This document shows positions 31,637 to 52,345 of a DNA stretch of 64,000 bases, in pieces. Origin of the DNA: Myxococcales bacterium (lineage in GTDB: Bacteria; Myxococcota_A; Polyangia; Polyangiales; Polyangiaceae). The DNA lies in the NCBI GenBank assembly GCA_013297655.1, contig JAAFHV010000003.1, forward strand, positions 1 to 64,000. The letters run 5' to 3'. The notes beneath the pieces were generated by a model, which ran no database searches, was not told the origin of the DNA, and was given only the letters and a program-made list of their open reading frames with translations. A program made the position numbers and the translations under genes. The stretch's first letter is position 1. Every line of letters starts with the position of its first letter.

Positions 31637-31678
31637 ACGCGCGACCGTCGAAAAAAGAAGAGGCCATCGGCGCTAGTG

Positions 31679-31794: not shown

Positions 31795-31810
31795 CGGCAT
31801 GCACCATGCA
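31795..31810 (+). promoter_or_regulatory. Sigma54-like promoter for histidine kinase 1
   Basis: CGGCATG-N4-ATGCA has GG-N10-GC (GG 31796, GC 31808) and 5 of 8 other consensus positions. Predicted start near 31821, 32 bases before the ATG. Confidence 0.5.
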
Positions 31811-31852
31811 AAGCGTGCGTGCTCGGCAACCTTTGCAGCCCGCATCGGAGCG

Positions 31853-33704: not shown

Positions 33705-33776
33705 GGTGCGTTCCGTCGCGCGGCCCTGGCCATCTCCGTGGATGGCGTCACCGGTGTCGATCATGCCTCACCGCTT

Positions 33777-33792
33777 TGCAACCGGCCGGCCA
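33777..33792 (-). promoter_or_regulatory. Sigma54-like promoter for CBS copy 1
   Basis: Minus-strand TGGCCGG-N4-TTGCA has GG-N10-GC and 6 of 8 other consensus positions. The predicted start near 33766 supports translation from 33704, not 33764. Confidence 0.55.
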
Positions 33793-33878
33793 ACACGACC
33801 GCCGAGCTCCGCGGGGCCCTCGGCACGCGATACCCGTGGGCGCACCGCGGGAACCTCCGCTCATGGTGTGTACGAAGG

Positions 33879-34286: not shown

Positions 34287-34315
34287 TTCGGCTTCCGTTC
34301 GCATGCCGATCCGTT

Positions 34316-34331
34316 TGCAATCCTCGGTCCA
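34316..34331 (-). promoter_or_regulatory. Sigma54-like promoter for the hypothetical gene at 33879
   Basis: Minus-strand TGGACCG-N4-TTGCA has GG-N10-GC and 6 of 8 other consensus positions. Predicted start near 34305, about 19 bases before the preferred ATG. Confidence 0.55.
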
Positions 34332-34431
34332 CGCACGTTCGAGCGACCGGACGAGCGACGCCCCCCTCCCCGGCGGGGCTTTCGCGCCTCGCATGTGGCG
34401 CCGTTGCCCGACCACGCTCCGAGACTCATGC

Positions 34432-37284
34432 TCATCGCGCGGGGGAGGCGACGAGAGACGTCTTGACCGGTGGCGTGGCGATATCTGCTCTTCTACGCAG
34501 CGCCCGATTCGCGGCCTTCACCACGTCGACGACGAACAGGGTAACGAGCACGCCGGCCACGACTACGCCCCAGTCGCGTGGAGAGAGGCTCGACGTGTGA
34601 AGAACCGCCCGCAGGGGAGGCACCGTCACCGTGACGATTTGCAGGACCACACAAACGCCAGTCGCCGCCCAAATCCAGACATTGGTGAACAATCCGGAGA
34701 GGCAAGAGCGTGTCTGAGATCGAGCGTTGAAGGCGTGAAAGACCTGCGCGAGCGCGAGAGTCATGAACGCGAGCGTGCCGGCGTGACGGTGCCCATCTTC
34801 CCCGTCGCCGTACCAGCGCAGCCCCACTCCGAAAGCCGCGAGGGAGACACCGCCCAGGAGCGCTCCTTGCCAGAGAACGAGCCACCCGAACGCGGGAGTC
34901 ATGAGCGGCTGTGTCGGTGGACGCGGTGGAACCGTCATGATGTCCGGAGCAGACGGCTCGAGCGCGAGCGCCATCGCGGGAAAGATGTCCGTTACCAGGT
35001 TGAGCCAGAGGATCTGCAGCACCGCGAGGGGAAGCGGCAACCCGATGACCACGGCGCCGAACACGGTAACGATCTCGCCCAAATTGCTCGAGAAGAGATA
35101 GTGAATGAACCGCAGAATATTGTGAACGATGATCCTCCCTTGTTCGATCGCGCCGACGATCGTCGAGAAGTCGTCGTCGGTGATGATCATGGCCGACGCC
35201 TCTTTGGCCACCTCCGTCCCGCGAATGCCCATCGCGATGCCGATATCGGCCTTTCGGAGCGCGGGCGCGTCGTTCACGCCGTCGCCCGTCATCGCGACGA
35301 CTTCGCCGTTTCGTTGGAGCGCATCGACGATGGCGAGCTTGTGCTCGGGCGAGACCCTCGCGAAGACCGCGGCGTCTTTCACCACGCGTTGAAAACCGGC
35401 CGCGTCGAGCCCCTCGAGCTCGCGGGCGTGCACCGTACGTAGCGGCCTCCCCTGCCCGTCCGCGTCGAGGCCCAACTGGCGCGCAATCTCGGACGCCGTC
35501 GCCTCCTGATCGCCCGTGATCATGATCGCGCGGAGCCCTGCCCCCCGGCAGGACGCGATGGTCGCGCGGGCGTTCTCGCGGAGCGGATCGATCATGCCGA
35601 CGAGGCCGACGAACACCAGGTCGCGGGAGATATCGGCCTCTTCGTAGCCCGCTGGCAACTCTCGATACGCGAGGGCGAGCACGCGGAGTGCCTCCGACGC
35701 GAGAGAGTCGTTCATCGCGTCGACGCCGACGCGAGCCTCGACGCCCGCGACTACGGTTCCATCGTCGGCGACGAAGCTCGTGCTCGCGTCGAGCACGGGC
35801 CCGGGCGCTCCCTTCACGTACGCGTAAGTCTTGCCATCCGGCGCCCCGTGCACCGTCGCCATCATCTTCGCAGCGCTGCTGAACGGCACTTCCGCGATAC
35901 GCGGATACCGCTTCTCCAGCTCCGCGCGCGCGACCCCCGCCTTTTCGGCCGCCACGACCAAAGCAGCCTCGGTCGGGTCGCCGAGCGCCACTGCGTTCGC
36001 TGCCGATCGATCGACCCGCGCGTCGTTGCATAGTGCACCTATACGAAGCGCGAGGCCGAGGGGGGTGCCTTCTTGCGCGAGCGCCCCCTCGTCGAGCGCG
36101 ACGCCGTCGACCTCGAATTGCCCGCCGACGCCATAACCTACCCCGGTTACGGAGATCTGCCTGTTGCCCAGTCGATAGGCGCGCACCGTCATCTCATTTC
36201 GCGTCAACGTGCCGGTTTTGTCGGTACAAATGACCGTCGTCGAGCCGAGGGCCTCGACCGCCGGCAACCGACGAACGAGCGCGTGCATGCGCGCCATTCG
36301 CTGCATTCCCACGGCGAGCGTCATCGTCGTCACCGCCAAGAGGCCCTCCGGTACCGCAGCGACCGCGAGGGAGATCCCGATCTCGACCATATAGAGAATC
36401 TTGTATCCACGGAGCCACCCGACGAGGATGACCATCGCGCAGACCACGACGACGACCACGACGAGCGCGCGTCCGAGCTCGGCGAGCTTCGTCTCGAGCG
36501 GCGTCTTACGCTCGCCGGCGCCGGCGACGAGCGCGTCGACCTTCCCCATCTCCGTCGTCGGGCCGGTCGCGGTGACGACGAATCGACCACGGCCGCCCGT
36601 GACCGCAGTGCCCATGTGGACCATGCCGAGACGATCGCCGAGCGCAGCGGAGACATCGTCGACCGAGTCGGTGCGCTTCGAGACGGGCACCGATTCACCC
36701 GTGAGAGCCGACTCGTCCACGCCCAGTCGCGCGCCGTCGAATAGGCGGCCATCGGCGGGCACACGGTCGCCCTCGCTGATCAGGACGACGTCACCGAGGA
36801 CGAGCTCCGAGGCTGGAATTTGCCGTTCTTCGCGGTCACGGAGCACCCGCGCGACGGCGACGGTATCCTTCCGCAAACCCTCGAGCGCCTTGGCGGCCTT
36901 CCACTCCGTAATGGCGCCGATGGCGGCGTTTATCAGAATGACGACGACGATGGCGCAAGCCTCGACGATGTCACCGAGCGCGACCGCGACGCCCATCGCG
37001 ACGACGAGCAGGCCGACCATGATGCTCATGAACTGATGAACGACGATCGAGACGAGGCTTCGTCGCTTCGCTTCATGGAGCTCGTTCGCCCCGTAGAGGC
37101 CGAGCCTCGTCGCGGCTTCCGCGCTCGTGAGGCCAGCCGTGGTGTCGGTTCGGAGCAGCTTTACCGCATCGGCCACGGAACGCGCATGCCAGCCCGTGAG
37201 CGTTGCTACCTCGCTCGCGGGCACGTCGCCGGAGGCGCGTGCTTCGTCGTTTGGGTCTACCGGTGCTCGCGCGGGAAGATTCAT
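34432..37284 (-). CDS. Ca2+-type cation-transporting P-type ATPase
   Basis: 950 residues from ATG 37284; the open frame continues upstream but with noncoding composition. Order: cation-ATPase N-terminal domain (about 30-95), membrane pair, actuator domain with TGES at 195-198, helix 4 with VPEGLL at 311-316, phosphorylation motif DKTGTLT at 355-361, nucleotide-binding domain, hinge [17 protein letters not shown], and a C-terminal six-helix domain. This is the P2 (SERCA/PMCA-like) group. The ion is probably Ca2+ or another divalent cation but cannot be fixed from PEGLL alone. Ion ATPases of this type occur in low-oxygen and dormancy regulons with CBS and Usp proteins. It has the best sigma54-like promoter in the window. 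Confidence 0.94.
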
Positions 37285-37313
37285 AGTCGAGGGCCTCGAG
37301 AGAGCGACCGCCG

Positions 37314-37329
37314 TGCACCCGTCGTGCCA
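37314..37329 (-). promoter_or_regulatory. Sigma54-like promoter for the P-type ATPase
   Basis: Minus-strand TGGCACG-N4-GTGCA has a perfect -24 block, GG-N10-GC, and 7 of 8 other consensus positions. Predicted start near 37303, about 20 bases before the ATG. Confidence 0.65.
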
Positions 37330-37749
37330 TTCACCTACAGCGGTACCGGTCGCGACTGCGAGCAGATATGCCTCATTGGGACATTCCGGCAGCACGAACC
37401 GATCGGCGCGGTTTACGTGTGTACCGATGGCGGGTGCCATATTCGCTTTGATTCGGCTCGCCGATGGGCAAAGCTCGGCGATCGCGCGCCAATTTGCGAA
37501 TTCCCGTGGCCGGCACGGCCGGTGCCGAGCGAACGCTACCGCTGGTGTGCCGACGGTTTCGAAGTCGCGGATCGGCGATCTCAGGCTGAGACGAGGGGCA
37601 TCGACGGCGCGAAGCGTGACGCCGCGGCGCGTGGTCGGCGGAACAGCGCCACCATTTCGATGGACGACTACGCCATATTGATGGTGCTCGCGCCGACGCG
37701 CGAACATCAAAAGCGGCGCCGGGACGCACGCTACCGTCGAACGCACGTG

Positions 37750-37765
37750 CGGCACGAAAGCTGCG
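37750..37765 (+). promoter_or_regulatory. Sigma54-like promoter for the CsbD-like gene
   Basis: CGGCACG-N4-CTGCG has GG-N10-GC (GG 37751, GC 37763) and 5 of 8 other consensus positions. Predicted start near 37776, about 77 bases before the ATG. Confidence 0.5.
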
Positions 37766-37852
37766 TTGCGTCTCCATATCGGCGGATCCGACGAGCGAGC
37801 GACCGCAGGGACGGACGCTATGCAGAACGCTGCTACCGAAAGGAGCCCACGG

Positions 37853-38125
37853 ATGCATTGGAATCGAATCGCGCGCCAGTGGCCGGAGCTCTCCCATGCG
37901 GTGAAGGCTCGTTGGCTAAAGTTGAGTGACCGCGACGTCGCCGATATCGGCGGAATGCGCGAGGCGATGATCGTCAAGGTGCACGATCGGTACGGGATCG
38001 CGAAGTTCGACGCCGAGAAGCAGGTGAACGCGTGGACCGACACGCTCCTGGCGGCGCTCGACAAGAGGGAAGCCGGCGGGAAGAGCGACGCCCCCGACCT
38101 CGTGGTGCACCGCCACCGTCCGTGA
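37853..38125 (+). CDS. CsbD-like stress protein
   Basis: 90 residues from ATG 37853, with AGGAG eight bases upstream. MHWNRIARQWPELSHAVKARW (by position 1-21), then LSDRDVADIGG and RYGIAKFDAEKQVNAW follow the CsbD pattern (Asn-Trp start, Lys/Trp helix, Gly-Ile-x-Lys helix). CsbD proteins are small four-helix stress proteins of unknown mechanism. Histidine kinase 2 follows after 131 bases and may share its transcript. Confidence 0.82.
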   Translation: MHWNRIARQWPELSHAVKARWLKLSDRDVADIGGMREAMIVKVHDRYGIAKFDAEKQVNAWTDTLLAALDKREAGGKSDAPDLVVHRHRP

Positions 38126-38256
38126 AGCCGGCAGCGCCGCGAGCGCACGAGCACGACGAACGGGCGGTCTTTAGGGGACTCATGTTCGCCGCGCGGGGAC
38201 CGGCCGGCGTTGGCGACGGTCGCGACCGACCTCGAACACGAGAAGGGCAACGAATC

Positions 38257-39345
38257 ATGTTGGGTGCGCTCATCGCATCGAATCGCGACGAAATTCTAAG
38301 ACGCACGCGGGCAATGGCCGCCGCGCGGTGCCCTCTCCCCCCACATCAAGAAGCGGGTCGTGAGAGCGGGAGCGGCGGGGTTTCGCCCTTTCTGCGGCAG
38401 TTGATCGATAGGCTCGACGACACCCGCCCGCCGTCTGGTGACTTGGCTGCCTCCGCCGCCAGCCACGGCAAAGACATGCTCCGCGAAGGTTCGACGATCG
38501 CGCAGGTCGTCCAGAGCTACGGGGATGTATGCCAGGTAGTCACCGCCATCGCCATCGAGCGCAAGTTGGCTATCACCACCGAAGACTTCAAGACACTCAA
38601 TCGATGCCTCGACACGGCGACCGCGGAGGCCGTGAGTGAATACGAGCGCGAGCGCGACAGAACGGCGACCGAGCATGGTACCGAGCGCCTCGGGTTTCTC
38701 GCGCACGAGCTTCGGAATAAGCTCAACAGCGCGATGATGGCGTTCGATGCGCTGAGGAGCGGCAGCGTGGGCATCGGCGGGAGCACCGGGGCCGTACTCG
38801 GTCGCAGCCTGAACGGAATCCGTTACTTGGTCGATCGTGCGCTGATGGAAGTACGGCTCGAGTCCGGCCTGATCGCCAAGGAGCGTATGTTCCTTTGGAG
38901 CTTCGCGGAGGAAATCGAGGTCACGGGAGCGTTCGAGGCGAAACAGAAAGAGGTCCGACTCCTGGTTGCGTGCCCCGACCGCACCGTGGAGATCGAGGTC
39001 GACCACCACATTCTCTCCGCCGCGGTGGGAAACCTCTTCCAAAACGCGTGCAAGTTCACGCCAACGGGAGGCCGCGTCACCGTCCGCGCCTATGCCGAGG
39101 GCGACCGCGTCTCGATTGAGGTCGAGGACGAATGCGGCGGCTTGCCTCCCGGAGCGCAAGAGTCGCTCTTTCGGCCGTTCGAACAACGAAACGAGGATCG
39201 CTCGGGACTGGGATTGGGATTGGCGGTGAGTCGCCTCGGTGTAGAGGCCAACGGCGGCACCATTCACGCCCGCGATCTGCCGGGCAGGGGGTGCGTTTTC
39301 ACTATCGTCCTCCCGGTCGCCGCCGGGGGTCGCCGGCCTAGTTAG
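38257..39345 (+). CDS. Soluble histidine kinase with RsbRD-like N-terminal domain (copy 2)
   Basis: 362 residues from ATG 38257 (AAGGG nine bases upstream), chosen because MLGALIASNRDEIL aligns with the start of copy 1. An ATG at 38182 with AGGGG is possible. N-terminal RsbRD_N-type domain (SHGKDMLREGSTIAQVV, SYGDVCQVV), then His150 in LAHELRN, N box NLFQNACKF, G1 VEDECGG and G2 SGLGLGLAV. The last ~60 residues are nearly the same as copy 1 (FEQRN-DR-GLGLGL, GVEANGG). No membrane helix and no adjacent response regulator. Convergent with the second CBS gene, 46 bases away. Confidence 0.87.
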   Translation: MLGALIASNRDEILRRTRAMAAARCPLPPHQEAGRESGSGGVSPFLRQLIDRLDDTRPPSGDLAASAASHGKDMLREGSTIAQVVQSYGDVCQVVTAIAIERKLAITTEDFKTLNRCLDTATAEAVSEYERERDRTATEHGTERLGFLAHELRNKLNSAMMAFDALRSGSVGIGGSTGAVLGRSLNGIRYLVDRALMEVRLESGLIAKERMFLWSFAEEIEVTGAFEAKQKEVRLLVACPDRTVEIEVDHHILSAAVGNLFQNACKFTPTGGRVTVRAYAEGDRVSIEVEDECGGLPPGAQESLFRPFEQRNEDRSGLGLGLAVSRLGVEANGGTIHARDLPGRGCVFTIVLPVAAGGRRPS

Positions 39346-39391
39346 TTTGGCACGAACGACCGTGCTCGCCACGAGACGCCCGCTCGTGCGC

Positions 39392-39757
39392 TCACGCGGG
39401 CAGGTAGTGCGCGAGCATCTCGAGCGCGTCGGCCGTCGTGAAGATGCCGACGACAGCTTTACCGGTCGTGATCACGGCGCAGCTCACCTTCTGGTCCGCC
39501 ATTCGCGCCACGACGCTACGCACGGAGTCGTTCGGTGAGGTACAATGCACGTGCTCCGTCATCGCGTGAGCCACTATCGTCTTGTCCAAGTCGACGCCGC
39601 GAATGGACTGCACGACCGCGATATCTCTATCGGACAGGACGCCGACGAGCTCACCGAGATCGACGACCGGTATATGGTGAATCGAGTACGAGGTCATGAG
39701 CCGAAGCGCGCTCGCGAGCGTCGCGCCGCTTCCGATGGAGCGCGGCTCGAGGGTCAT
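39392..39757 (-). CDS. CBS-pair protein (copy 2)
   Basis: 121 residues if started at ATG 39757 (MTLEP). The frame is open to ATG 39835, but the region aligned to copy 1 begins only at the IRHWMTLEP stretch, and a sigma54-like element at 39848-39863 predicts a transcript beginning near 39838. AGGTG lies 13 bases before ATG 39757; an ATT at 39769 aligns with the ATG of copy 1. Two CBS repeats: HIPVVDLGELVGVLSDRDI and SCAVITTGKAVVGIFTTADA (by position). Probable adenine-nucleotide sensor, paired with histidine kinase 2 as copy 1 is with kinase 1. Confidence 0.82.
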   Translation of the reverse strand: MTLEPRSIGSGATLASALRLMTSYSIHHIPVVDLGELVGVLSDRDIAVVQSIRGVDLDKTIVAHAMTEHVHCTSPNDSVRSVVARMADQKVSCAVITTGKAVVGIFTTADALEMLAHYLPA

Positions 39758-39847
39758 CCAATGGCGAATACACCTTTCGTCCCTCCGGGTCCCCCGTTCC
39801 GCGTTCGCTCCGGTCGCTCGGTATCTCTCGTTCATGACCCGAAGAGA

Positions 39848-39863
39848 TGCAAAGTCGTATCCA
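39848..39863 (-). promoter_or_regulatory. Possible sigma54-like promoter for CBS copy 2
   Basis: Minus-strand TGGATAC-N4-TTGCA has GG-N10-GC and a full -12 block but a poor -24 block (4 of 8 other positions). Kept because the position mirrors that of CBS copy 1. Confidence 0.35.
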
Positions 39864-39910
39864 CGGGCCGCCGCGCGGCCGGGAGACGGCGGGAAACGAG
39901 TCGTCGACCC

Positions 39911-39926
39911 CGGCACGTCGAACGCT
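39911..39926 (+). promoter_or_regulatory. Sigma54-like promoter for the universal stress protein
   Basis: CGGCACG-N4-ACGCT has GG-N10-GC (GG 39912, GC 39924) and 5 of 8 other consensus positions; the -12 block is weak. Predicted leader about 120 bases. Confidence 0.4.
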
Positions 39927-40057
39927 GCGCTCTTCTCTACCTTGGCGACCCGTGTCGCGACGCGCTCCGCAGGTCCATCCTCGCAGTCCTCGTCCTTCAC
40001 GACGTGACCGCCGCGGGCGGACGGACGGACGGAACGGACTTTGCTCACAGACCGCCC

Positions 40058-40477
40058 ATGAACCGAATCCTCACCTGCCTCGATTCGTCTCCCCGCGCCG
40101 TGAACGTGCTCGCCACCGCTGTCGCGCTCGCGAAAAAGACGGGGGCCAAGCTGGTCCTGTTTCGCAGCGTCGGGCTCGATCCGGAGCTTCGGTACGAGAT
40201 CATGGGTATCACTCCGAACGAGGCGCTCGATCGTGTCATGGCCCACACCAAGAGCGACCTCGACGCCATCGCTGCCACGGTCCCGCCAGAGGTGCTCGAT
40301 CGCGCTGTCGCTCACGTTGGCACTCCGTGGGACGCGATATGCCGCGAGGCGCGCAAGCTCGACTGCGACCTCATCGTGATTGGCTCGCACGGATACGCGG
40401 GGATCGACCGGCTGCTCGGCACCACCGCAGGAAAGGTGGTCAATCACGCCGATTGCTCGGTCCTCGTCGTGAGGTGA
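40058..40477 (+). CDS. Universal stress protein
   Basis: 139 residues, the single-domain Usp length, from ATG 40058. ILTCLDSSPRAVNVL at the start gives the first strand and the Asp of the nucleotide pocket. GSHGYAGIDRLLGTTAGKVV near 110-129 (by position) carries the Gly-x2-Gly-x9-Gly-Ser/Thr ATP-binding signature, followed by CSVLVVR. It should bind ATP and form dimers. It lies with CBS-pair and P-ATPase genes, the usual companions of Usp in energy-stress regulons, and is divergent from CBS copy 2. Confidence 0.93.
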   Translation: MNRILTCLDSSPRAVNVLATAVALAKKTGAKLVLFRSVGLDPELRYEIMGITPNEALDRVMAHTKSDLDAIAATVPPEVLDRAVAHVGTPWDAICREARKLDCDLIVIGSHGYAGIDRLLGTTAGKVVNHADCSVLVVR

Positions 40478-40534
40478 CCCGCGGCGTGCAAGCTTTGCGC
40501 GCCCGCGCCTCGATTGCGCACGGCCCAAATCACC

Positions 40535-41305
40535 CTACCGAACGTGGAGGTTGATGCCCGCGCGCCTCGCGAGAGCTTCCTCGAGCATCTCGTGGAGCGC
40601 CCCCTCCACCTCACGCCGCATGCTCGTACACGCCACCTCGTCCACTGACGAGGCGCGCGCGTAGCGTGGGGCGATCGGCGAGCCGATCCGGAACTGAAGC
40701 GGCACCAGGTGGGGAACTGGAAAAAGGCGAGGGATCGGGATGCTCTTGCGATGAAGGAGTCGCTCGCCGCGAGCAAACGCGTTCCCGACGAGGTCGAACC
40801 AATCGTCTGCCCCCACCGAGGCGAGGGGCACCATCGGCGCCTGATTTCGAATCGCGGCGCGGATGAAGCCGTAGCGGTCTCCCCAGAGGAGGCGATACCG
40901 AAGCTCGCGCGGCTTTACGGCTTCCCGTAGGCCGCCGGGAAGTACGAGCACGGTCTCGTCGCGCTCGAGGAGGTGGTCGACGTTCTCCGGGGTTCCGTCG
41001 ACCAAGCCCACCGCCGCGGCGAGCCTCCGCAAGAAGGGAATCTCCCACCACAGGTGCTCACCCAAGACCCACACCCGGCGCCCGAGTCGGCGGTAGATCG
41101 CGGCCATCGGAAAGATCACGTCCCACCCGAACGCGTGATTCGCGACGAGTAAAGTGCGCCCCTCGGGGAGGCAATCGAGGCCGTCGACCTTCACCTCCAG
41201 CCGCGCGGAGATGCGCTCGACGAGGGAGAACAGGCGAGTCGATGTCTCGTCGGAGAACGAGCTGAATGCATCCCGGCTCCCCGGGTCGAATCCATCGATG
41301 GTCAC
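40535..41305 (-). CDS. PlsC-like lysophospholipid acyltransferase
   Basis: 256 residues from GTG 41305. The acyltransferase HX4D motif is HAFGWD at 57-62 in the context VANHAFGWD, followed by a VLPGGLREA block that resembles motif III of PlsC/monoacylglycerol acyltransferase-like enzymes. It should acylate a lysophospholipid or another lipid alcohol at the membrane. It is divergent from the type III PKS gene and is probably part of the lipid cluster. No alternative start exists before the active site. Confidence 0.85.
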   Translation of the reverse strand: MTIDGFDPGSRDAFSSFSDETSTRLFSLVERISARLEVKVDGLDCLPEGRTLLVANHAFGWDVIFPMAAIYRRLGRRVWVLGEHLWWEIPFLRRLAAAVGLVDGTPENVDHLLERDETVLVLPGGLREAVKPRELRYRLLWGDRYGFIRAAIRNQAPMVPLASVGADDWFDLVGNAFARGERLLHRKSIPIPRLFPVPHLVPLQFRIGSPIAPRYARASSVDEVACTSMRREVEGALHEMLEEALARRAGINLHVR

Positions 41306-41622
41306 GACCTTCGTAATGCACGAACGAGGCCCACATACGGCCGACGTGAGGCAATGGGCCGGGCCCCGGCGGCGCCGAGCTCGCAGCGACGCAGGGACTG
41401 GCTCTTCGAGCCCCGCGCGGCGCTATCGCCTCCGCGGAGTGCATCGGCGACACAGTGAGGCTCGAAGGAGCGCGACCGAGCGGCGCGCACGACGTCCGAA
41501 CACATCGAATGCTGCATATTCCGTCGGGGCATGCGTTCTGCAATACGGCCCTCGCCGTCGGGTGAAGCAGCTCGCACATTCGCAGACGTTCGCCGGCCAT
41601 CTCGCTCTCCGCAGGAGGCCTC
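41306..41622. other. Divergent region between acyltransferase and type III PKS genes
   Basis: 317 bases, no gene supported. It contains the sigma54-like element at 41527-41542. A weaker GG-N10-GC match near 41318 faces the acyltransferase and is not called. Confidence 0.5.
41527..41542 (+). promoter_or_regulatory. Possible sigma54-like promoter for the type III PKS cluster
   Basis: GGGCATG-N4-CTGCA has GG-N10-GC (GG 41528, GC 41540) and 5 of 8 other consensus positions. Predicted start near 41553, about 70 bases before the GTG start. Confidence 0.4.
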
Positions 41623-42693
41623 GTGACCGTCGCCCACGTCAATCGTATCGCCACTGTCGTACCACCCCACGAGATACACGGGGCGTTCGTCTCCTTCGCG
41701 AAGACGCACCTCGCGGACGAACGCAAGCGCGCCCTCTTCTCGCGAATGGCGGCGAAAGCGGGTATCGAGCGCCGCTACTCCGTGCTGTCTCCGTCGCCGA
41801 GCACGGGCTCCGACTGTGTCGACGGCGAGGGCCTCTATCGGCGCGGGGCATTTCCTTCCACCGGCGAGCGAATGCGCGTTTTCGAGCGCCACGCCGCCGA
41901 TCTCGCGGAGAGGGCAGTCGCGAAGCTCGACCTCGGTTATGCGGCGCTCGGGCGCATCACCCACGTGGTGGTCACGAGCTGCACGGGGCTCTACGCCCCC
42001 GGGATCGACTCGGAGCTCGCCAAGCGCCTCTCCCTCTCGCCCTCCGTCGAACGCACCATGATCGCGTTCATGGGCTGTTACGCGGCCGTGAATGCGCTCA
42101 AGCTCGCTCGCCACGTAGTGCGCTCCGAGCCGCAAGCGCGCGTGCTCGTCGTGAACCTGGAGCTTTGCACTCTCCATTTGCAAGAGACGAACGACCTCGA
42201 ACAGGTGCTCTCGTTCCTCCTCTTCGCCGACGGATGTGCGGCGAGCATCGTCAGCGCCGACCCGGAAGGGATCGCCCTCGACCGGTTTCACGCCCTCACC
42301 GTGCCCGACACCGCCGACCTCATCACGTGGCACATACGGGACCAAGGTTTCGACATGCACCTCGGCGGGCGAGTGCCGGCCGCGATTGCTCGTGGGTTGT
42401 CGGAGGCGTCCTCGACGATCACCAACGGCGCGCCGGTCGGGTCCATCGAGAGGTGGGCGGTGCACCCCGGGGGGCGGTCCGTCCTCGACGCGGTCGCACA
42501 CGGACTAGGGCTCGAGGGGGCGTCGCTCGTGGAGTCTCGCTCCGTCCTCGCGAAGTTCGGCAACATGTCCTCTGCGACGATCATGTTCGTTCTCGAAGAG
42601 ATCCTCCGCGCGGCGGCGCCCGGCGAGCGAGGTTGCGGAATGTCGTTCGGGCCCGGGCTTACCGCCGAGACGTTCCTCTTCCACAAGGCCTGA
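41623..42693 (+). CDS. Type III polyketide synthase (chalcone synthase-like)
   Basis: 356 residues from GTG 41623, with GGAGG five bases upstream. The full catalytic triad of the thiolase fold is present: Cys152 in FMGCYAAVNAL, His281 in WAVHPGG, and Asn314 in FGNMSSATI. GGMSFGPGLT-like CGMSFGPGLTAE near 338-349 is the family C-terminal signature. It should condense a fatty acyl or other starter with malonyl-CoA to make a pyrone, resorcinol or similar ring. It heads a run of four genes with spacings of 42, -4 and -4 bases, so flavoprotein, acyltransferase and hydrolase act with it. Confidence 0.94.
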   Translation: MTVAHVNRIATVVPPHEIHGAFVSFAKTHLADERKRALFSRMAAKAGIERRYSVLSPSPSTGSDCVDGEGLYRRGAFPSTGERMRVFERHAADLAERAVAKLDLGYAALGRITHVVVTSCTGLYAPGIDSELAKRLSLSPSVERTMIAFMGCYAAVNALKLARHVVRSEPQARVLVVNLELCTLHLQETNDLEQVLSFLLFADGCAASIVSADPEGIALDRFHALTVPDTADLITWHIRDQGFDMHLGGRVPAAIARGLSEASSTITNGAPVGSIERWAVHPGGRSVLDAVAHGLGLEGASLVESRSVLAKFGNMSSATIMFVLEEILRAAAPGERGCGMSFGPGLTAETFLFHKA

Positions 42694-42735
42694 AATGAAC
42701 CCACCGAGCTCGCGCCTTCGCGGAAGTGCCCGCCC

Positions 42736-43863
42736 GTGACCACCCTCGTCGTTGGGGGAGGTCCCGCTGGCGCAGCCTTCGCGATTCGGTTGGCGCGCGC
42801 GGGGCGACGCGTCGAGCTGTTCGAGCGCGAATCGGAGGCAACGCACAAGATGTGCGGCGAGTTCTTGTCCCACGAAGCGATGGGATATCTCGCGAAGATT
42901 GGAGTCGATCTCCCGGCAGCAGGGGCGACTCCGATCGTGTCGCTACGCCTCGCGACCCCCGCTGGCACGACGACCGTGCCGCTGCCGTTCTTGGCATCGA
43001 GCCTGTCGCGCTTTGCGATGGACGAGCTGCTCCTCCTCGCGGCGGAGCGCGAAGGGGTAACCGTGCGGCGCGGGGCGAGGGTACGGGAGGCGTCGACCTC
43101 GGTCTCACGCGGCGCGCGAATTCGCCTCGAGGGGGGAACGGAACACGAGGGAGACGCGCTCGTCCTCGCGACAGGCAAACACGACCTTCGTGGGCACTCG
43201 CGACCAGCGGGCATGCAAAACGACCTCGTCGCGTTCAAGATGCATTATCGGCTCTCTGCGGAGCAGGCTCGCATCCTCGAGGGTCACGTCGAGCTCGCGA
43301 CGTTCGTCGGAGGGTACGCGGGCCTCCAATCTATCGAGGGCGGGTTCGCGAACCTCTGTCTCCTCGTCGAGAAGCAACGTCTCCGCGGCGTCGGCGGCGG
43401 GTGGGATGGTCTGATCCCGGCGTTAATCGCGGAGTCGGCTCATCTGCGCGCCCGCCTCGGTGGAGCCCTCCCTCGGTGGGAGCGGCCGTTGGGGCTCTCT
43501 CGCATTCCATACGGTTTCGTACGACGTACGAGCTCCACGGGCGCGTGGCACCTCGGAGACCAAGCCGCGGTCATTCCGTCGTTCGCAGGAGATGGAATGG
43601 CGATGGCGCTCCACAGCGCGGAGGTCGCCGCGAACACTTTTTTGCAGGGCGGGGGCGCGACCCGCTACACGGCATTGTTCGCGCGCGACGTGCGCGCGCA
43701 GGTCGTCGTCGGTACCGGCCTCTCCAAGGTAGCCGTTACGGGGGTGGGCCAGCGGTTAATCGGGGCGTGCGCGGCGCTCTTTCCGTTCGTCGTGTCGACG
43801 ACCGCGTCGCTCACCCGTCTTTCGCACGCGTCGCTCCGACGCGCGGCGACGGGCGCATCGTGA
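42736..43863 (+). CDS. FAD-dependent monooxygenase or reductase
   Basis: 375 residues from GTG 42736. The FAD Rossmann motif VGGGPAGAAFAIRLA lies at about 6-20 with ELFERE at the second strand. A Cys follows in KMCGEFLS, as in geranylgeranyl-reductase-like flavoproteins. The second FAD block reads HLGDQAAVIPSFAGDGMAMAL. The C-terminal part has hydrophobic stretches (about 325-350) that could sit on the membrane. In Streptomyces SrsC-type phenolic lipid pathways a flavoprotein hydroxylates the ring made by a type III PKS; that role fits here but is inferred. It overlaps the next gene by GTGA. Confidence 0.88.
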   Translation: MTTLVVGGGPAGAAFAIRLARAGRRVELFERESEATHKMCGEFLSHEAMGYLAKIGVDLPAAGATPIVSLRLATPAGTTTVPLPFLASSLSRFAMDELLLLAAEREGVTVRRGARVREASTSVSRGARIRLEGGTEHEGDALVLATGKHDLRGHSRPAGMQNDLVAFKMHYRLSAEQARILEGHVELATFVGGYAGLQSIEGGFANLCLLVEKQRLRGVGGGWDGLIPALIAESAHLRARLGGALPRWERPLGLSRIPYGFVRRTSSTGAWHLGDQAAVIPSFAGDGMAMALHSAEVAANTFLQGGGATRYTALFARDVRAQVVVGTGLSKVAVTGVGQRLIGACAALFPFVVSTTASLTRLSHASLRRAATGAS

Positions 43864-44744
43864 CCGTCTCGGTGCGGGATACCGAAGAGCACCTGACGTT
43901 CGGACGGCGTATCGCGGTACGAATCGCGGAGTCGCTACGATCCGCTGCCGGTGCCTTCGACCCGGACCGACTCGACCGCCGTGACGCAGCGCTCGTGGCG
44001 CGCCTCGAGGCGATCTCCGGGTTCCTGAACGAGCACTATCTCGGGCTGCAGACAGAAGGGTTCGACGAGCTGCCCGAGGGGCCGGCGCTCTACGTGGGCA
44101 ATCACAACGGGGGAATCGCGGGGCCCGATCTTTGTTGCACTCTGGGTACGCTGTGGCGCGCTCGCGGGCCGGAGGCGCCGCTCTACGCCCTCGCCCACGA
44201 TTTCGTGATGCGCCAGATCTCGCCCGTCGGCGCCCTCCTCCAGCGCCTCGGCGGGCTTCGGGCGACGCCGGAGGTCGCGCTCCGTGCGCTCGCTGCAGGG
44301 GCGCAAGTTCTCGTGTATCCCGGCGGCGATCTCGACGCCTATCGCCATGCTCGGCGCTCCGACACGATCGTGCTCGGACCGAGGACCGGCTTCGTGCGGG
44401 TGGCGCAGGAGGCGGGAGTGCCCATCGTGCCCATCGTGGCCCAAGGCGCCCACCGAAGCGCGTACATATTTTCCGAGGGCGAGCGAATCGCTCAGCTCCT
44501 CAGTCTCAAACGATGGGCGCGCCTCGAGCGTTTTCCGCTCGCCTTCGCGTTGCCTTGGGGCGTCGCGGTCGGTCCGTGGCTCCCCTATTTTCCCCTGCCG
44601 TTTCCCGTTCGCCTGCGCGCACTTTCGCCGATCGAAGCGCCGCGTTCGATCGCGCCGGAGGTGATTCGCGAGGAGGTGCGACGCACGATGCAGCACCACC
44701 TCGACGAGCTCGTCGAAGCCTCGAGGCGCAGGCCAAAACCGTGA
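43860..44744 (+). CDS. Acyltransferase with NHNGG motif
   Basis: 294 residues from GTG 43860, overlapping the flavoprotein stop by four bases. The active-site block is YVGNHNGGIAGPD, a variant of HX4D seen in diacylglycerol-acyltransferase-like and mycobacterial relatives (NHSGG type). Later VYPGGDLDAYR and VPIVPIVAQGAHRS are motif III/IV. It should transfer an acyl chain to a hydroxyl; the cluster suggests a phenolic or polyketide lipid acceptor. The next gene overlaps by four bases. Confidence 0.85.
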   Translation: MTVSVRDTEEHLTFGRRIAVRIAESLRSAAGAFDPDRLDRRDAALVARLEAISGFLNEHYLGLQTEGFDELPEGPALYVGNHNGGIAGPDLCCTLGTLWRARGPEAPLYALAHDFVMRQISPVGALLQRLGGLRATPEVALRALAAGAQVLVYPGGDLDAYRHARRSDTIVLGPRTGFVRVAQEAGVPIVPIVAQGAHRSAYIFSEGERIAQLLSLKRWARLERFPLAFALPWGVAVGPWLPYFPLPFPVRLRALSPIEAPRSIAPEVIREEVRRTMQHHLDELVEASRRRPKP

Positions 44745-45571
44745 CACGGCCCGACTCTGGATTCGTCCCCCTCGCGGACGGTGGGCGCCTCGCCTATCGC
44801 ATCGACGGCCCCGCGGGCGGTTTCCCGGTACTCCTCGTTCGCCCGCTCGGCGGCTCGATGCGCCTCTGGGGTACGTTTCGAGACAACCTCGCGTCGCGGC
44901 ATCGCGTGGTGTCGTACGACCACCGCGGGAGCGGCTATTCGAGCCGTGCGCCGGCCCTTCGGTCGACGGAGGCGCTCGCGCGCGACGCAAGCTCGGTGCT
45001 CGACTACTTTGGTATCGAGCGTGCCCATGTATTCGGGATATCTCTCGGAGGTATGGTCGCTACCTGGCTCGCGGCGCATCAGCCGGCCAAAGTCGACCGC
45101 TTGTGCCTTGCCTCTGCTCCCGTGCGAGGATTGGACCTCAGTGGGGGCGGGATCCAGAGGGAGCTCGCCCTCGCGGCATGTTTTTTACTTCGCAGTGGCG
45201 AGGTGGAGGCGGCGCTCGTACGGCGGGTGCTCTCGCGTCGCTTTCGCAGCTCGAACCCGCGTGAAGTGGAGCGCATCGTCCGCGTCGTAAAGACAGAGCC
45301 GATCGCCACGACACGCCGAGTGCTCCTCGCGCGCGCGAGCGCGGGTATCTTCCACGACGCGAGCGACGCCGCGCGGTCCATCCCCTGCCCTACGCTCGTT
45401 CTCCGCGGCGGCGACGACATCTTGCTCGGCCCGCGAGACGCGCTGGATCTGGCAGGGGCGATTCCCCGTGCGACGCTCGAGACCATCTCCGCGGTCGGCC
45501 ATGATCCGACCCTCGAGGCTCCAGAACAGACCGCCGCGCGAGTAGCCAGGTTCTTCACACCGAACCGCTGA
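44741..45571 (+). CDS. Alpha/beta hydrolase
   Basis: 276 residues from GTG 44741, overlapping the acyltransferase stop as GTGA. Signatures are DHRGSGYS near the oxyanion strand, nucleophile elbow GISLGGMVA, an Asp in LRGGDD, and a catalytic His in SAVGHDPTLE. This is the haloperoxidase/3-oxoadipate-lactonase-like layout. It could release or trim the polyketide product. Its 3' end overlaps the convergent methyltransferase gene by 17 bases. Confidence 0.9.
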   Translation: MTRPDSGFVPLADGGRLAYRIDGPAGGFPVLLVRPLGGSMRLWGTFRDNLASRHRVVSYDHRGSGYSSRAPALRSTEALARDASSVLDYFGIERAHVFGISLGGMVATWLAAHQPAKVDRLCLASAPVRGLDLSGGGIQRELALAACFLLRSGEVEAALVRRVLSRRFRSSNPREVERIVRVVKTEPIATTRRVLLARASAGIFHDASDAARSIPCPTLVLRGGDDILLGPRDALDLAGAIPRATLETISAVGHDPTLEAPEQTAARVARFFTPNR

Positions 45572-46679
45572 AGAGCTCGGTCGCGGAGTACGGCGACGCG
45601 CGGTTCGACCAAGGAGACGCACGCAAGTACGTAAACCCGGGCGCGACACGTCCGGTCGTGATGGTCGATCCCGCCCGCACCGCCGGCGACATCCGCGCGA
45701 TCGCGGCGAGCTCTTCTTCGGCATACATCTTCCGGAGCGAGACGAAGGTGTCGTGGGTAGCCGCCCACGAGCCGGTGTCGAGCGAGGCCACGAGAGCGAG
45801 GAGCGCAGCTCCCACGATCGTGCGCTCGCCATCGACGAGCCACACCGCGCGGCCTGCGATCCGCGAAGCTTCGCCGATGACGCGGGCGACCATTCCGGGT
45901 GAAAAGTGGTGAATGCTCTGGGTGCACATGACCACGTCGTAGGCGCCCGGCGCGATACTCCCGAGCGCCGTCGCGTCCTGTTGCTCGAAGCGAACGTCGA
46001 GGCCACGTCGTCCGGCTTCTGCTCTTCCGAGCGCGAGATACTCCTCGAAGATATCTGTCGCAGTGACCTCGACGTCGGGCCCGAAGCGCGCCTTGAGTGC
46101 GAGCGCAAAGCCTCCGTGGCCGGTCGCGAGGTCGAGGACGCGAGTGGGGTGTTGGCGGCGCGCGAGGTCGGGCATCATGAGGTTGGCCCAAAGCTCGTAG
46201 CTACCGAGGCCATCGTTCAAGAAGGCGAGGCAGTCCATCACCGCCCGCCGATCCTCCGGAGCGCACGAGGGATCGTCGCAATACTCCGAGCCTCGCGCGA
46301 GCGTGAGGCGATCGACGGCGGCGAGGAGCCGCGCGAGTGGATGTCCGAGGTCCAAGCTTCGGAGCGCCTCGACGACATCGCCGACCTCCTCGTCGAAGGC
46401 GCGAATGGCCGCGGGGTCGGCGGCGAGCACGCCACCCGTGAGCGCGACTGCACGGGGGAGCGCGACCTTGAGCTGACGTTCACTCTCTTCGGTTCGCAGG
46501 CGAGCGAGCAATGGCCCGAGCACGACGAACGACGGCAACCGCGTCGCGAGCCCGAGGACGCGGCGAAGGAGGGAGTCGAGCGACGACAGCTTGCGCGGCC
46601 TCGAAGAAGCGGCCCGAAGCGTCATGGGAGTCACCAGAGTGCGCGGTGTGCGCGCCGGCTCGCTGCATGCGTGCATCAT
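45555..46679 (-). CDS. Class I SAM-dependent methyltransferase
   Basis: 374 residues from ATG 46679 (AGGCG seven bases upstream); ATG 46625 is an alternative. A helical N-terminal domain of ~170 residues precedes a Rossmann methyltransferase: motif I VLDLATGHGGFALAL, acidic motif II (TATDIFEEYL), and YDVVMCTQSIHHF as motif IV. Type III PKS clusters for phenolic lipids usually include a methyltransferase (SrsB role), which is the likely job; convergent position and proximity support this only indirectly. Confidence 0.88.
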   Translation of the reverse strand: MMHACSEPARTPRTLVTPMTLRAASSRPRKLSSLDSLLRRVLGLATRLPSFVVLGPLLARLRTEESERQLKVALPRAVALTGGVLAADPAAIRAFDEEVGDVVEALRSLDLGHPLARLLAAVDRLTLARGSEYCDDPSCAPEDRRAVMDCLAFLNDGLGSYELWANLMMPDLARRQHPTRVLDLATGHGGFALALKARFGPDVEVTATDIFEEYLALGRAEAGRRGLDVRFEQQDATALGSIAPGAYDVVMCTQSIHHFSPGMVARVIGEASRIAGRAVWLVDGERTIVGAALLALVASLDTGSWAATHDTFVSLRKMYAEEELAAIARMSPAVRAGSTITTGRVAPGFTYLRASPWSNRASPYSATELFSGSV

Positions 46680-47101: not shown

Positions 47102-47527
47102 TTGAAAACACCCGGCGCCGATCACGTCGCGAGGGCGAGGGCCTTGCTCGCGCGCGAGGGAGCCGAGCTCCGGGAGGGCGAGCTAAAGGCGACCGCCGCA
47201 TCTTGTGTGTACGACAAGCTCTACTCCCACTTGGCGCCGCTCGTCGGTGACGCCGGGACGCAGCTCCTCTTCATGCGGAGCGCGAAGCTCACCAAGGGCG
47301 AGCTCGCGATATTCGCGGCGCAGTCGATCCTCGAGGGAACGACCAAGCTGCGCGAGCGGCTCGCGGCACACGAAACGCCGCTCGAGACCGAAACCGCCGC
47401 GTTGTTCTTCGGCACCTTCTTTACCCTCATCACGACCCTCATCGGCGAGCGCCTGACGGCCCAGGTGCTCCGACGAGCGTGGCCAAACTCTACGATTCCG
47501 CACGTGGGAGACGAAAACAATGAGTGA
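47102..47527 (+). CDS. Small helical protein coupled to KaiC-like gene
   Basis: 141 residues from TTG 47102 with GGGGA seven bases upstream; GTG 47075 is the alternative. The protein is all-helical, with LLFMRSAKLTKGELAIFAAQ and a hydrophobic stretch (ALFFGTFFTLITTLIGERL) that may be a membrane or dimer helix. Its stop overlaps the KaiC-like start by eight bases, so it is translationally coupled. It resembles neither KaiA nor KaiB. Unrecognised family; it may be an input partner of the ATPase. Confidence 0.72.
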   Translation: MKTPGADHVARARALLAREGAELREGELKATAASCVYDKLYSHLAPLVGDAGTQLLFMRSAKLTKGELAIFAAQSILEGTTKLRERLAAHETPLETETAALFFGTFFTLITTLIGERLTAQVLRRAWPNSTIPHVGDENNE

Positions 47528-49025
47528 CAGGGTGCCGATTCCGAAGCTTCGTTCCGGCGTCTCGGGTCTCGACGAGGTCTTGGGAGGCGGAATTCCCGAG
47601 CTATCGTTCAACCTCATCGCGGGTGGCCCTGGCGCGGGCAAGACTACGATGGCGCACCAAATCATGTTCGCGAACGCGAGCGCGGAGCGAAACGCCGTCT
47701 ACTTCAGCATCATCGGTGAACCGCCGATAAAGATGCTCCGCTATCAGCAGCAGTACGATTTTTTCGACGCCGCAAAAGTGGGAGACGGTACGGTTCGCTT
47801 CGTTCACCTCGGCCAGCGGTCGATCGAAGGCGGTCTCGAGGCCGTACTCGACGGTATCGTTCAGGAGCTCGACCGAACGAATCCCGGCATCGTCGTGGTC
47901 GATTCCTTTCGCGCTATCGTGCGCGACTCGCTCGAAGCCGGGTCCGGCAGCGAGCGACAGCTCTCCAATTTCATGCAGCGCCTCGCGCTCGTGCTGACCG
48001 GCTACGAGGCCACGACGTTCTTGATTGGCGAGTACGCCGATGGCGAGCACGACAACGCGGTTTTCACCGTCGCCGATGGCCTACTGTGGCTCTATCAGGC
48101 CATCGACCGAAACTCGATCGTGCGCAAAGTGCACGTGATGAAGATGCGGGGGCAAGGCCAGATCCCGGGGCTTCACATGGGCAGGATCTCGCGCGCGGGG
48201 TACAGCGTCTTTCCGAGGCTCCTGAAGCCGCCCGAGGTCGTCGGCGATCGCCCGCTCGATCACCGACTGTCGACGGGAGTACCGGGCCTCGACGAGATGT
48301 TAGGCGGGGGGATACCTCGCGGGTACTCGGTGTTGGTCGCAGGCCCCTCCGGCTCGGGCAAAACGGTGCTCTCGAACCAGTTCATCGTCGAAGGGGTAAA
48401 CCAGGGCGAGAACGGAATCGTCGCGGTCTTCGAGAAGCGGCCCGCGGACTACCTGCAGACCACCCCGCGGGGGGAGGAGTTCGAGAAGCTCGTCCGCGAG
48501 AAGAAGCTCGAGGTCCTCTACCTCCGTCCCCTCGATCTCTCGATCGACGAGACGCTCGTCGAGATTCAAGAGGCCGTAAAGCGCGTCGGAGCGAAGCGCG
48601 CCGTCATCGACTCCCTTTCGGGTCTCGAGCTCGCGCTCGCGCCGACGTTTCGAGAGGACTTCCGCGAATCCCTCTATCGCATGATGGGCGCGCTCGCGGG
48701 ACTCGGCGTTACGGTCATGGCGACCGTAGAGCTAGCCGACGCGTACACCGAGCTTCGGTTCAGCCCCCATGGCGTCGCCTTCCTGACAGACGCCATCATC
48801 ATCCAAAGATACGTGGAGCTCGAGGCCGAGCTGACCCGGGTGATGGCGGTCGTAAAGGTGCGGTCGAGCCAACACAGCAAAGAGCTTCGGAGCTACCAGA
48901 TATCGACCGACGGGGGCATCGTCGTGGGCAATGCCTTGACCGGCTATCGTGGCCTTCTGAGCGCGGCGCCGTCGCAGAGCGGCGATTCATCGCGATCGGC
49001 GGACCCCAAGAGAGACTCCCGGTGA
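47520..49025 (+). CDS. Double-domain KaiC-like ATPase
   Basis: 501 residues with tandem RecA/KaiC domains. Walker A is GGPGAGKT at 35-42 and GPSGSGKT at 275-282; Walker B strands read IVVVDSF and RAVIDSL. Clock KaiC has paired catalytic glutamates after Walker A; here the aligned pairs are Gly66-Glu67 and Glu305-Lys306. The autophosphorylated Ser/Thr pair of clock KaiC aligns with Ala420-Phe421. It should bind and perhaps hydrolyse ATP as a hexamer but cannot run the known phosphorylation cycle. Coupled to the gene before and followed 112 bases later by a histidine kinase. A regulatory switch is the best inference. Confidence 0.92.
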   Translation: MSDRVPIPKLRSGVSGLDEVLGGGIPELSFNLIAGGPGAGKTTMAHQIMFANASAERNAVYFSIIGEPPIKMLRYQQQYDFFDAAKVGDGTVRFVHLGQRSIEGGLEAVLDGIVQELDRTNPGIVVVDSFRAIVRDSLEAGSGSERQLSNFMQRLALVLTGYEATTFLIGEYADGEHDNAVFTVADGLLWLYQAIDRNSIVRKVHVMKMRGQGQIPGLHMGRISRAGYSVFPRLLKPPEVVGDRPLDHRLSTGVPGLDEMLGGGIPRGYSVLVAGPSGSGKTVLSNQFIVEGVNQGENGIVAVFEKRPADYLQTTPRGEEFEKLVREKKLEVLYLRPLDLSIDETLVEIQEAVKRVGAKRAVIDSLSGLELALAPTFREDFRESLYRMMGALAGLGVTVMATVELADAYTELRFSPHGVAFLTDAIIIQRYVELEAELTRVMAVVKVRSSQHSKELRSYQISTDGGIVVGNALTGYRGLLSAAPSQSGDSSRSADPKRDSR

Positions 49026-49137
49026 CGTCGTCCCACGCCGGACTTCGCGCGGACGGCGACTCGGCGCATGGCCTCGACCACCGCGCGCGACAATGCTCGC
49101 CGTGCGCTCTCGCGCGCCAACCGAGGGGGTCTCGGCG

Positions 49138-50175
49138 ATGCCACGTCTGACCATCGAGATCGACGACGAGATCGTCGAAGGGCTCGCCATCTTCGGCGAG
49201 CCGAGCGACGTTTTGGTGCGCCTCGCCCGATCGGCAGGCGCAGTCGGGCGCGGCCGCCTGAGCCAGCGACGACCCGACGCAGAGGATTCGCGGCAGGGAG
49301 ACGCCGACCAAGACTCGGCTGTCGGTGCCATCGTCGATGCGACGATCTTCGACTTGCGAGAAGCGAACGCCCGAATGGTCGGCACGGCAATTCGCGCACA
49401 AGAGCTCGCGGGTGAGGCCGCCGCTGCGACCCAACGCGCCGAAGATGGCGCGCGCGATCTACGAACCGTCGCCGAATTTCGCGAGATGTTCATTGGCATT
49501 CTCGCACACGACTTGCGAGCGCCGCTCAACACCATGGTGCTGGCGAGCGGCGTGCTGCTCGGCCAAGCTCACCTCCGCGAGGGCGACCTTCGCTTGGCCG
49601 AGCGCATCGGCAAGAGCGGCCGTCGAATGGCGAGAATGATCGACCAGGTCGTCGACTTCACGCGCGCCCGCCTGGCGGGTGGTTTCGCGCTCAACGTCAC
49701 CCCGACCGACATGGGAGACGTGTGCGAAAACGTGGTGGAGGAGCTCCGGCTCGGCTCGACTACCGTGATTCATCACAGTGCCGTCGGCGACCTCGAGGGG
49801 ACATGGGATGCCGATCGCCTCGCGCAGGCTATCTCCAATATTGCTGGCAACGCCGTCAGTCACGCCAAACCCGGGACTGCCGTCGTCGTTCGTGCGCTCG
49901 ACCACGGCGACGCGGTCGTCGTCGAAGTCACGAACGAGGGGGTTCCGATCGGAGCAGACCTCTTGCCCGTCATCTTCGAGGCATTTCGAGGGGGGAGGTC
50001 GACGAGAACCAGCGTTGGTGGGCATTTGGGCCTCGGCCTCTATATCGCGTCGGAGATCGTGCGCTCGCATGGCGGCACGATCGCAGCGCGCCCGGGCGAA
50101 GGGACGACGACGTTCGAGATTCGGGTTCCCCGCGTCGTCCCGAAGAGGCGCACGACCGACCGCGAGTCGGAGTAA
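49138..50175 (+). CDS. Histidine kinase following the KaiC-like gene
   Basis: 345 residues from ATG 49138 (GAGGGG nine bases upstream); ATG 49093 lacks a site. It opens with a short beta region (MPRLTIEIDDEIVEG), then a coiled coil (about 65-115), HisKA with His124 in ILAHDLRAPLN, N box AISNIAGNAVSHA, and G2 LGLGLYI. There are no membrane helices. In cyanobacteria KaiC speaks to the kinase SasA; this kinase lacks the KaiB-like sensor domain of SasA. It is likely the output of the KaiC-like protein, by gene order. Confidence 0.88.
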   Translation: MPRLTIEIDDEIVEGLAIFGEPSDVLVRLARSAGAVGRGRLSQRRPDAEDSRQGDADQDSAVGAIVDATIFDLREANARMVGTAIRAQELAGEAAAATQRAEDGARDLRTVAEFREMFIGILAHDLRAPLNTMVLASGVLLGQAHLREGDLRLAERIGKSGRRMARMIDQVVDFTRARLAGGFALNVTPTDMGDVCENVVEELRLGSTTVIHHSAVGDLEGTWDADRLAQAISNIAGNAVSHAKPGTAVVVRALDHGDAVVVEVTNEGVPIGADLLPVIFEAFRGGRSTRTSVGGHLGLGLYIASEIVRSHGGTIAARPGEGTTTFEIRVPRVVPKRRTTDRESE

Positions 50176-50564
50176 TTGGGAATCGCGCATACCTTCGATG
50201 ATGAACGACGCGAGCTCTCGGTCGAAGCCGGGCGCCGACTACGCCAAATGAGGACCGTCGACTCGCGCGCGGAAGCCGCGAGCTCCGCACGACCCGAGCG
50301 CCGCTCACCACCCACCGAGCTGCCGCCGCCCCCCGTCGCGCCGCCAGTTGGCAAACGCGAGCCGACAGTGCTGTCCCCCCTCCGGCGAGCGCAGGCTCGA
50401 CGAACGGCCGCCGCGGGAGCCAGGCCGTGCCAGCACACCGACGCACATATTTTCGCCCCATGGGGCCAGACATCAGAATTTATGCGTATTTATGCTACGC
50501 AAACCTTGCGAACCGCAACTTCTTCCCCTCGAACAACAGCGAATCCTCTGCTACGTCCGGCGGC
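50176..50564. other. 389-base intergenic region with A+T-rich patch
   Basis: No gene supported. An A+T-rich stretch at about 50450-50500, unusual for the window, contains short direct and inverted repeats and is probably the kinase promoter region. Confidence 0.5.
50478..50500. promoter_or_regulatory. Direct and inverted repeats upstream of the third kinase
   Basis: ATTTATGC occurs at 50478-50485 and 50488-50495, one helical turn apart. GCGTA and TACGC (50484-50488 and 50496-50500) form an inverted repeat around the second copy. Likely a regulator site in the promoter 65 bases upstream of the kinase ATG. Confidence 0.4.
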
Positions 50565-51995: not shown

Positions 51996-52345
51996 GCGCG
52001 CGCAGACGTTCTTGCCGCGTCGCAGCCGCCGGGAGCGAGGGCGGCGAGCGGGCCGCCGCCGACCGACGCTTCGGAGCGACCGCACATCGGCGAGCCCTCA
52101 TCGTGCAGTGAGGCGCGGCCTTATCGGGCCTCGGGGAGCCGCGGATACCATCCCGAACCTTCGGCGCGCGCGCGGCAAACCGAGCGATTCTAGCGGTCGA
52201 CGGATAACCAAATTTGGCGTAGTCGCGGCCGGTCGAGCTTGCCTTTCCGGCGATATCGCGTGTAAGTATCGCGGTGCTGGCAACGAAGCACGCTTCGCGC
52301 TGGTACGAACCCTCGTCCCCGATGGCGCGAACAAGCAAGGAACCG
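51996..52345. other. 350-base intergenic region
   Basis: I see no gene, terminator or clear promoter motif here beyond a short A+T-rich spot near 52205. The small frames lack ribosome sites. Confidence 0.45.

Follow-up and report, generated by a model that had tools for sequence, protein, structure and literature searches.

A four-gene operon centred on a type III polyketide synthase (PKS) was found in a 64,000-nucleotide stretch of DNA from a Myxococcales bacterium (assembly GCA_013297655.1, contig JAAFHV010000003.1, positions 1 to 64,000), here called the window. The core of the cluster consists of four co-directional genes at 41623–45571, encoding the PKS, a flavin adenine dinucleotide (FAD) enzyme resembling monooxygenases, an acyltransferase (AT2) and an alpha/beta-hydrolase (HYD). 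Judged from sequence, there is about an even chance that these genes form a phenolic-lipid operon in which AT2 would attach a fatty acyl group to the product and HYD would act as an esterase or acyl-transfer partner. The features of the locus are as follows.

40535..41305, minus strand: PlsC-like acyltransferase gene, divergent, 256 aa; HX4D motif NHAFGWD; next to the cluster but not linked to it in relatives
41623..42693, plus strand: type III PKS, 356 aa; GTG start with AGGAGG a few bases 5' of the start
42694..42735, plus strand: PKS-FAD gap of 42 nt, where relatives hold a cassette methyltransferase gene of about 700 bp
42736..43863, plus strand: FAD monooxygenase-like flavoprotein, 375 aa
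43860..44744, plus strand: AT2, PlsC/DAGAT-type acyltransferase, 294 aa; motif NHNGG[IV][AM]GPD
44741..45571, plus strand: HYD, alpha/beta-hydrolase, 276 aa; triad Ser101-Asp226-His254
45555..46679, minus strand: class I methyltransferase gene, convergent, 374 aa; next to the cluster but not linked to it in relatives

The six genes named in a preliminary description of this stretch were all found where it had placed them. That description had the PKS, FAD, acyltransferase and hydrolase genes coupled by 4-base overlaps; such overlaps are present at the FAD/AT2 and AT2/HYD junctions, but the PKS and FAD genes are 42 nt apart. The gap between them contains an ATG-led open reading frame of 14 codons (42695–42739) that shares its last 4 nt with the start of the FAD gene and may be a remnant of the cassette methyltransferase gene.

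Linkage of AT2 and HYD to type III PKS clades

The search for AT2 covered the phylum, a collection of genome contigs (one degenerate-pattern scan) and plasmids. The scan of the genome contigs gave 13 AT2 loci, four of them already among the phylum-sample loci; L037 and L126 are the same contig of genome G050. The AT2 relatives of the phylum sample form two groups, with seven genomes (that of the window included) scoring above 310 bits and the others at 205 bits or less. Identity within the top group is 56–65% outside the window's own genome, and at E ≤ 1e-25 the wider AT2 family extends to 119 of 379 genomes. Outside the Myxococcota, plasmid records gave only matches of 32–39% that are annotated as acyltransferases.

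Nine genomes have AT2 next to a type III PKS, and HYD is present at eight of those nine loci. The PKS is of the window type in three genomes (the window, G050 and L123); the order in G050 (L037/L126) and L123 is PKS-methyltransferase-FAD-AT2-HYD, and nearly all junctions allow a 4-nt overlap. A further four genomes (G048, G383, G398 and G053) carry AT2 with an srs-like set of PKS, ICMT and FAD_binding_3 genes, AT2-HYD being divergent in G053, and the methyltransferase and monooxygenase of this set are unrelated to those of the window-type cassette. AT2 accompanies a third PKS clade at L122, where FAD-AT2-HYD is divergent from the PKS, and at L129, where the order is PKS-methyltransferase-AT2. 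The PKS tree placed the AT2-linked enzymes in three separate clades, each with support of at least 100/99. The AT2-linked label requires five changes on this tree, of which four or more fall on well supported branches. The preliminary description had set the acyltransferase and hydrolase outside the Streptomyces srsABC pathway, a point upheld here, and the linkage in three PKS clades ties them to type III PKSs nonetheless.

Of 11 AT2-HYD loci tested, whether PKS-linked or not, 9 allow a 4-nt overlap of the HYD start with AT2, and in several clusters the AT2 start overlaps the FAD or methyltransferase gene that precedes it. A type III PKS is encoded in 15 of 17 AT2 genomes compared to 45 of 145 genomes in the order (Fisher p = 7e-6, shared ancestry being ignored), where the 15 include G051 on a partial AT2 and some AT2 genomes also belong to the background set. 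Against a quality-filtered background of 41/107 the enrichment gave p = 1e-4. Five of the seven AT2 genomes that have no adjacent PKS carry a type III PKS elsewhere.

Three further observations were made at these loci. At L119:1128-1620 (G051) an AT2 fragment lies directly beside a short fragment of a third-clade PKS, the result of a misassembly or of the decay of a cluster; this linkage was left out of the counts owing to the possible misassembly. At L122:4067-6326 the AT2-linked PKS is adjoined by genes encoding a small subunit of the NiFe-hydrogenase type and a 4Fe-4S protein, which may bear on a redox role of the lipid. A TspO/MBR family gene (L037:8124-8765) is located directly upstream of the five-gene operon of G050.

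The PKS-FAD cassette and the encoded enzymes

PKSs of the window type in other myxobacteria (60–65% identical) occupy a PKS-methyltransferase-FAD cassette, seen at L037, L038, L075, L076, L077 and L123. The FAD enzyme of the window is 44–54% identical to those of seven related loci, which places it in the same monooxygenase family. The PKS-FAD pair of the window belongs to this cassette, with the methyltransferase missing from between the two genes. A search of the window's own genome (assembly 97.6% complete) with the L037 enzyme gave no match to the cassette methyltransferase.

Cassettes of the same kind are carried on plasmids of Roseomonas, Falsirhodobacter, Microvirga, Mesorhizobium and Methylobacterium. 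In plasmid cassettes such as those of Roseomonas haemaphysalidis p546-2 and Falsirhodobacter algicola the PKS is 50–59% and the FAD enzyme 26–48% identical to that of the window, mostly in the same order. Unlike the window they keep the methyltransferase, which lies between PKS and FAD or, in Novosphingobium pentaromativorans, divergently upstream. No AT2-HYD match was found in the six alphaproteobacterial plasmid stretches examined. On plasmid pLA3 of N. pentaromativorans (L170:3560-6083) genes for an acyl carrier protein and a ketosynthase precede the window-type PKS-FAD pair, a starter-supply variant, and on a plasmid of Mesorhizobium sp. INR15 (L174:5001-9273) the cassette is followed by a gene of the cyclopropane-fatty-acyl-phospholipid synthase family and is flanked by transposase genes.

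The preliminary description had compared the locus to srsABC. Its reading as a phenolic-lipid-type type III PKS operon stands, while the srsABC parallel does not, as PKS and FAD belong to a hid-like cassette. SrsB and SrsC are presumably an ICMT-type methyltransferase and a FAD_binding_3 monooxygenase; no ICMT was found at the window locus and the window FAD enzyme is of the geranylgeranyl reductase type, so that srsABC identity was rejected on the types of both enzymes. The myxococcotal clusters with the srs-like anatomy, four of which carry AT2-HYD as described above, represent a separate PKS clade approximately 30% identical to the window PKS.

When compared by gene content, the closest published architecture for the window PKS-FAD cassette is hidABC, not srsABC. 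Operons of methyltransferase, FAD and PKS genes have been described as hidABC for hierridin in Cyanobium (PMC8086630) and in Planctomycetota (PMC10896814). The three-gene content of hidABC is matched by the window's relatives, although these put the PKS first, and the window differs further in the absent methyltransferase and the added AT2-HYD. In srsABC of Streptomyces griseus and pkqABC of Mycobacterium smegmatis a PKS is followed by a methyltransferase and a hydroxylase that convert a long-chain resorcinol to a benzoquinone (PMC9927152); they share with the window type the logic of a type III PKS combined with these two activities. The window operon, a hid-like cassette minus its methyltransferase and plus AT2-HYD, is thus a new variation on a known operon type. 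The word acyltransferase is absent from all three papers (PMC8086630, PMC10896814, PMC9927152), and no relevant literature was found that links type III PKSs and an acyltransferase with acylated alkylresorcinols.

The window PKS scored above the Pfam cut-off for PF00195/PF02797, and its triad, described earlier as intact, was confirmed as Cys152-His281-Asn314, invariant across seven aligned window-type PKSs. Trp236 was mapped, by a conserved motif and the position of CHS Gly256, to the place of ArsB Trp281. A Trp is present here in all window-type and AT2-linked PKSs. The nearest solved structure is PKS18, a long-chain alkylpyrone synthase, which has Leu at this position. The resorcinol synthase ArsB has Trp281 where the pyrone synthase ArsC has Gly, and PkqA also has Trp at 281 (PMC9927152). 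Because Trp occupies this resorcinol-linked position, Trp236 favours an alkylresorcinol over a pyrone as the predicted product. The same genome encodes another type III PKS of this clade about 22 kb downstream, just past the window (G000:C223:64147-65211, minus strand; L005:6142-7242). It is 57% identical to the window PKS, has the triad and the Trp intact and lies beside a trehalose-synthesis gene; the 19 kb examined around it contained no methyltransferase, FAD, AT2 or HYD match.

The AlphaFold model of the FAD enzyme (predicted local distance difference test, pLDDT, 86.9) has as its nearest structures 3-hydroxybenzoate 6-hydroxylase, the monooxygenase TrlE and the ChlB4 halogenase, which puts the predicted fold closest to phenol hydroxylases and phenol/pyrrole halogenases; among PDB sequences, halogenases match it best by profile. 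Flavin-dependent halogenases carry a WxWxIP motif. This motif was not found in the window FAD protein or its alignment, and the halogenase reading was rejected for that reason; a phenol hydroxylase fits the predicted enzyme best.

AT2 scored above the Pfam cut-off for the LPLAT domain PF01553 and has an invariant H82 and D90 in NHNGGxxGPD, with a spacing of HX7D compared to the usual HX4D. The HYD residues Ser101, Asp226 and His254 are invariant across 12 aligned homologs.

Predicted pathway and alternative readings

Alkylresorcinol formation, ring hydroxylation and O-acylation are suggested by the Trp of the PKS, the fold and profile of the FAD enzyme and the LPLAT/PlsC matches of AT2. The PKS, going by its family and Trp236, would extend a long-chain acyl starter with malonyl-CoA and close the chain to an alkylresorcinol. 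The FAD enzyme, going by family and fold, would hydroxylate the ring to an alkyl-hydroquinone that could be oxidised to a quinone, as proposed for oxidoreductases of the HidB and PkqC type. Methylation, the step of the cassette enzyme in relatives, would be lost at this locus: the step would be missing altogether, or a different methyltransferase would carry it out, possibly that of the convergent neighbouring gene. AT2, going by genomic association, would then move a fatty acyl group to a phenolic hydroxyl of the lipid, with HYD as its partner, most likely an esterase removing or exchanging the acyl group.

Several results weigh against this assignment. AT2 has no relative in the PDB by sequence, and its model is moderate (pLDDT 69.5) with PlsC (5kym) as the best fold match, which would fit a glycerolipid role as well. 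The best NCBIfam match of the FAD enzyme, the geranylgeranyl reductase superfamily, is below cut-off. The trees of both AT2 and the FAD enzyme are poorly resolved. The HYD proteins of the srs-type clusters are only 34–36% identical to the window HYD and so may not be strictly orthologous to it, and L129 has AT2 without HYD. AT2-HYD occurs without a PKS in the flank examined at L116/G043, L127, L130 and L133, and on the shorter contigs L124 and L128, with AT2 alone on L134. No type III PKS could be detected in two of the AT2 genomes, and the enrichment of PKS genes in the remainder carries the ancestry limit given above.

The convergent methyltransferase might have replaced the lost cassette enzyme, so that the product is methylated after all. 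This is compatible with an acylated phenolic lipid, and we regard it as a possibility rather below even. Both enzymes have NCBIfam model PRK06202 as their best match despite weak direct similarity, and therefore the edge enzyme might substitute functionally; its gene adjoins an operon that lacks the cassette methyltransferase, and in N. pentaromativorans the cassette methyltransferase too has changed place, lying upstream on the opposite strand. Direct comparison of the two enzymes, however, gave only weak local matches of approximately 21–30% identity; the edge protein is of a different subfamily and carries a long extension at its N-terminus. Among the 145 genomes of the order, 30 encode relatives of it, none at a PKS cluster, and in G048, G050, G383 and G043 they lie away from the AT2 cluster. 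Given this distribution the edge methyltransferase was rejected as a cluster member, and its place in the PKS pathway, as given in the preliminary description, was not borne out.

A more specific version of the proposed role, which we put forward tentatively and think somewhat unlikely, is that AT2-HYD is a dedicated acylation/deacylation module taken up by three PKS lineages of the Myxococcota. The product would be an alkyl-hydroquinone or resorcinol esterified with a fatty acid, and HYD would free the redox-active form.

AT2-HYD could otherwise be a general lipid-remodelling pair, for example a lysophospholipid acyltransferase and a lipase, that merely shares an operon with a PKS and FAD enzyme making an alkylresorcinol or quinone. 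The PlsC fold match of AT2, the commonness of the wider AT2 family and the existence of at least four loci, all with long flanks, where AT2-HYD has no PKS close by are consistent with such a pair. Linkage to three PKS clades with differing partner enzymes is nevertheless hard to explain by chance placement, and both the overlap of the AT2 start with the preceding cassette gene and the enrichment of type III PKSs in AT2 genomes argue against it; we consider this reading unlikely.

An alkylpyrone product is improbable. Type III PKS clusters for alkylpyrones are conserved in many myxobacteria, with Labilithrix and Sandaracinus scored positive (PMC12766979), and share with the window the phylum and, as predicted for the window, long-chain products. 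By their description, these clusters are set apart from the window, which has the Trp at the cyclisation position and probably different partner genes. The closest solved structure also belongs to an alkylpyrone synthase, but Trp236 matches ArsB rather than the Gly of ArsC or the Leu of PKS18, and the ring hydroxylase, together with the methyltransferase in relatives, accompanies the PKS as in the hid and pkq operons.

More improbable still is that AT2 and HYD act before the PKS, supplying or editing the long-chain acyl starter by acyl transfer or thioester hydrolysis: type III PKSs of this sort take such starters, HYD as a Ser-His-Asp hydrolase could cleave thioesters, and the ketosynthase and carrier protein directly upstream of the N. 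pentaromativorans PKS indicate that starter-supply genes do join such operons, but PlsC/DAGAT-type enzymes normally make esters from acyl donors, and as most type III PKS cassettes lack AT2-HYD, starter supply does not need it.

Flanking genes and significance

The two edge genes and AT2-HYD behaved differently when the conservation of flanking genes with the PKS was checked in relatives, as AT2-HYD is conserved with it and neither edge gene is. The edge PlsC-like gene (40535–41305) has many relatives in the order, and its closest relatives (53–67%) in nine other genomes are none of them near a PKS cluster; it was rejected as a cluster member, leaving the second acyltransferase of the preliminary description without comparative support in the pathway.

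The sigma54 promoter suggested in that description was also rejected. The best match (41527–41542) has three mismatches. The window holds 198 matches of this quality, roughly one every 325 bases, where 159 would be expected; the site is therefore at chance level and carries no weight. Stress and signalling genes abound around the cluster (27244–41305 and 47520–54748). They include a sigma54 activator with XylR_N (27244–28869), a phosphoketolase (29071–31569), histidine kinases at 31799, 38263 and 52274, CBS-domain proteins at 33324 and 39395, a P-type cation ATPase (34432–38250), a universal stress protein (40058–40477), a KaiC-like gene identified by eye (47520–49025) and a protein kinase (50427–51995).

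Phenolic lipids made by type III PKSs serve in other phyla as membrane components and alternative respiratory quinones. The new point of the window locus is the AT2-HYD pair, which hints at a fatty-acylated phenol lipid so far undescribed. That this pair has joined three type III PKS cassettes unrelated to one another within a single phylum suggests a shared extra step carried out by defined, testable enzymes. If AT2-HYD is indeed a dedicated module, its product would be a storable or switchable redox lipid, which would be new for bacteria. Judging by their genes, the AT2-linked type III PKS clusters of myxobacteria, at least, look more like resorcinol/quinone clusters, suggesting that the type III PKS clusters of myxobacteria may not all be alkylpyrone clusters.

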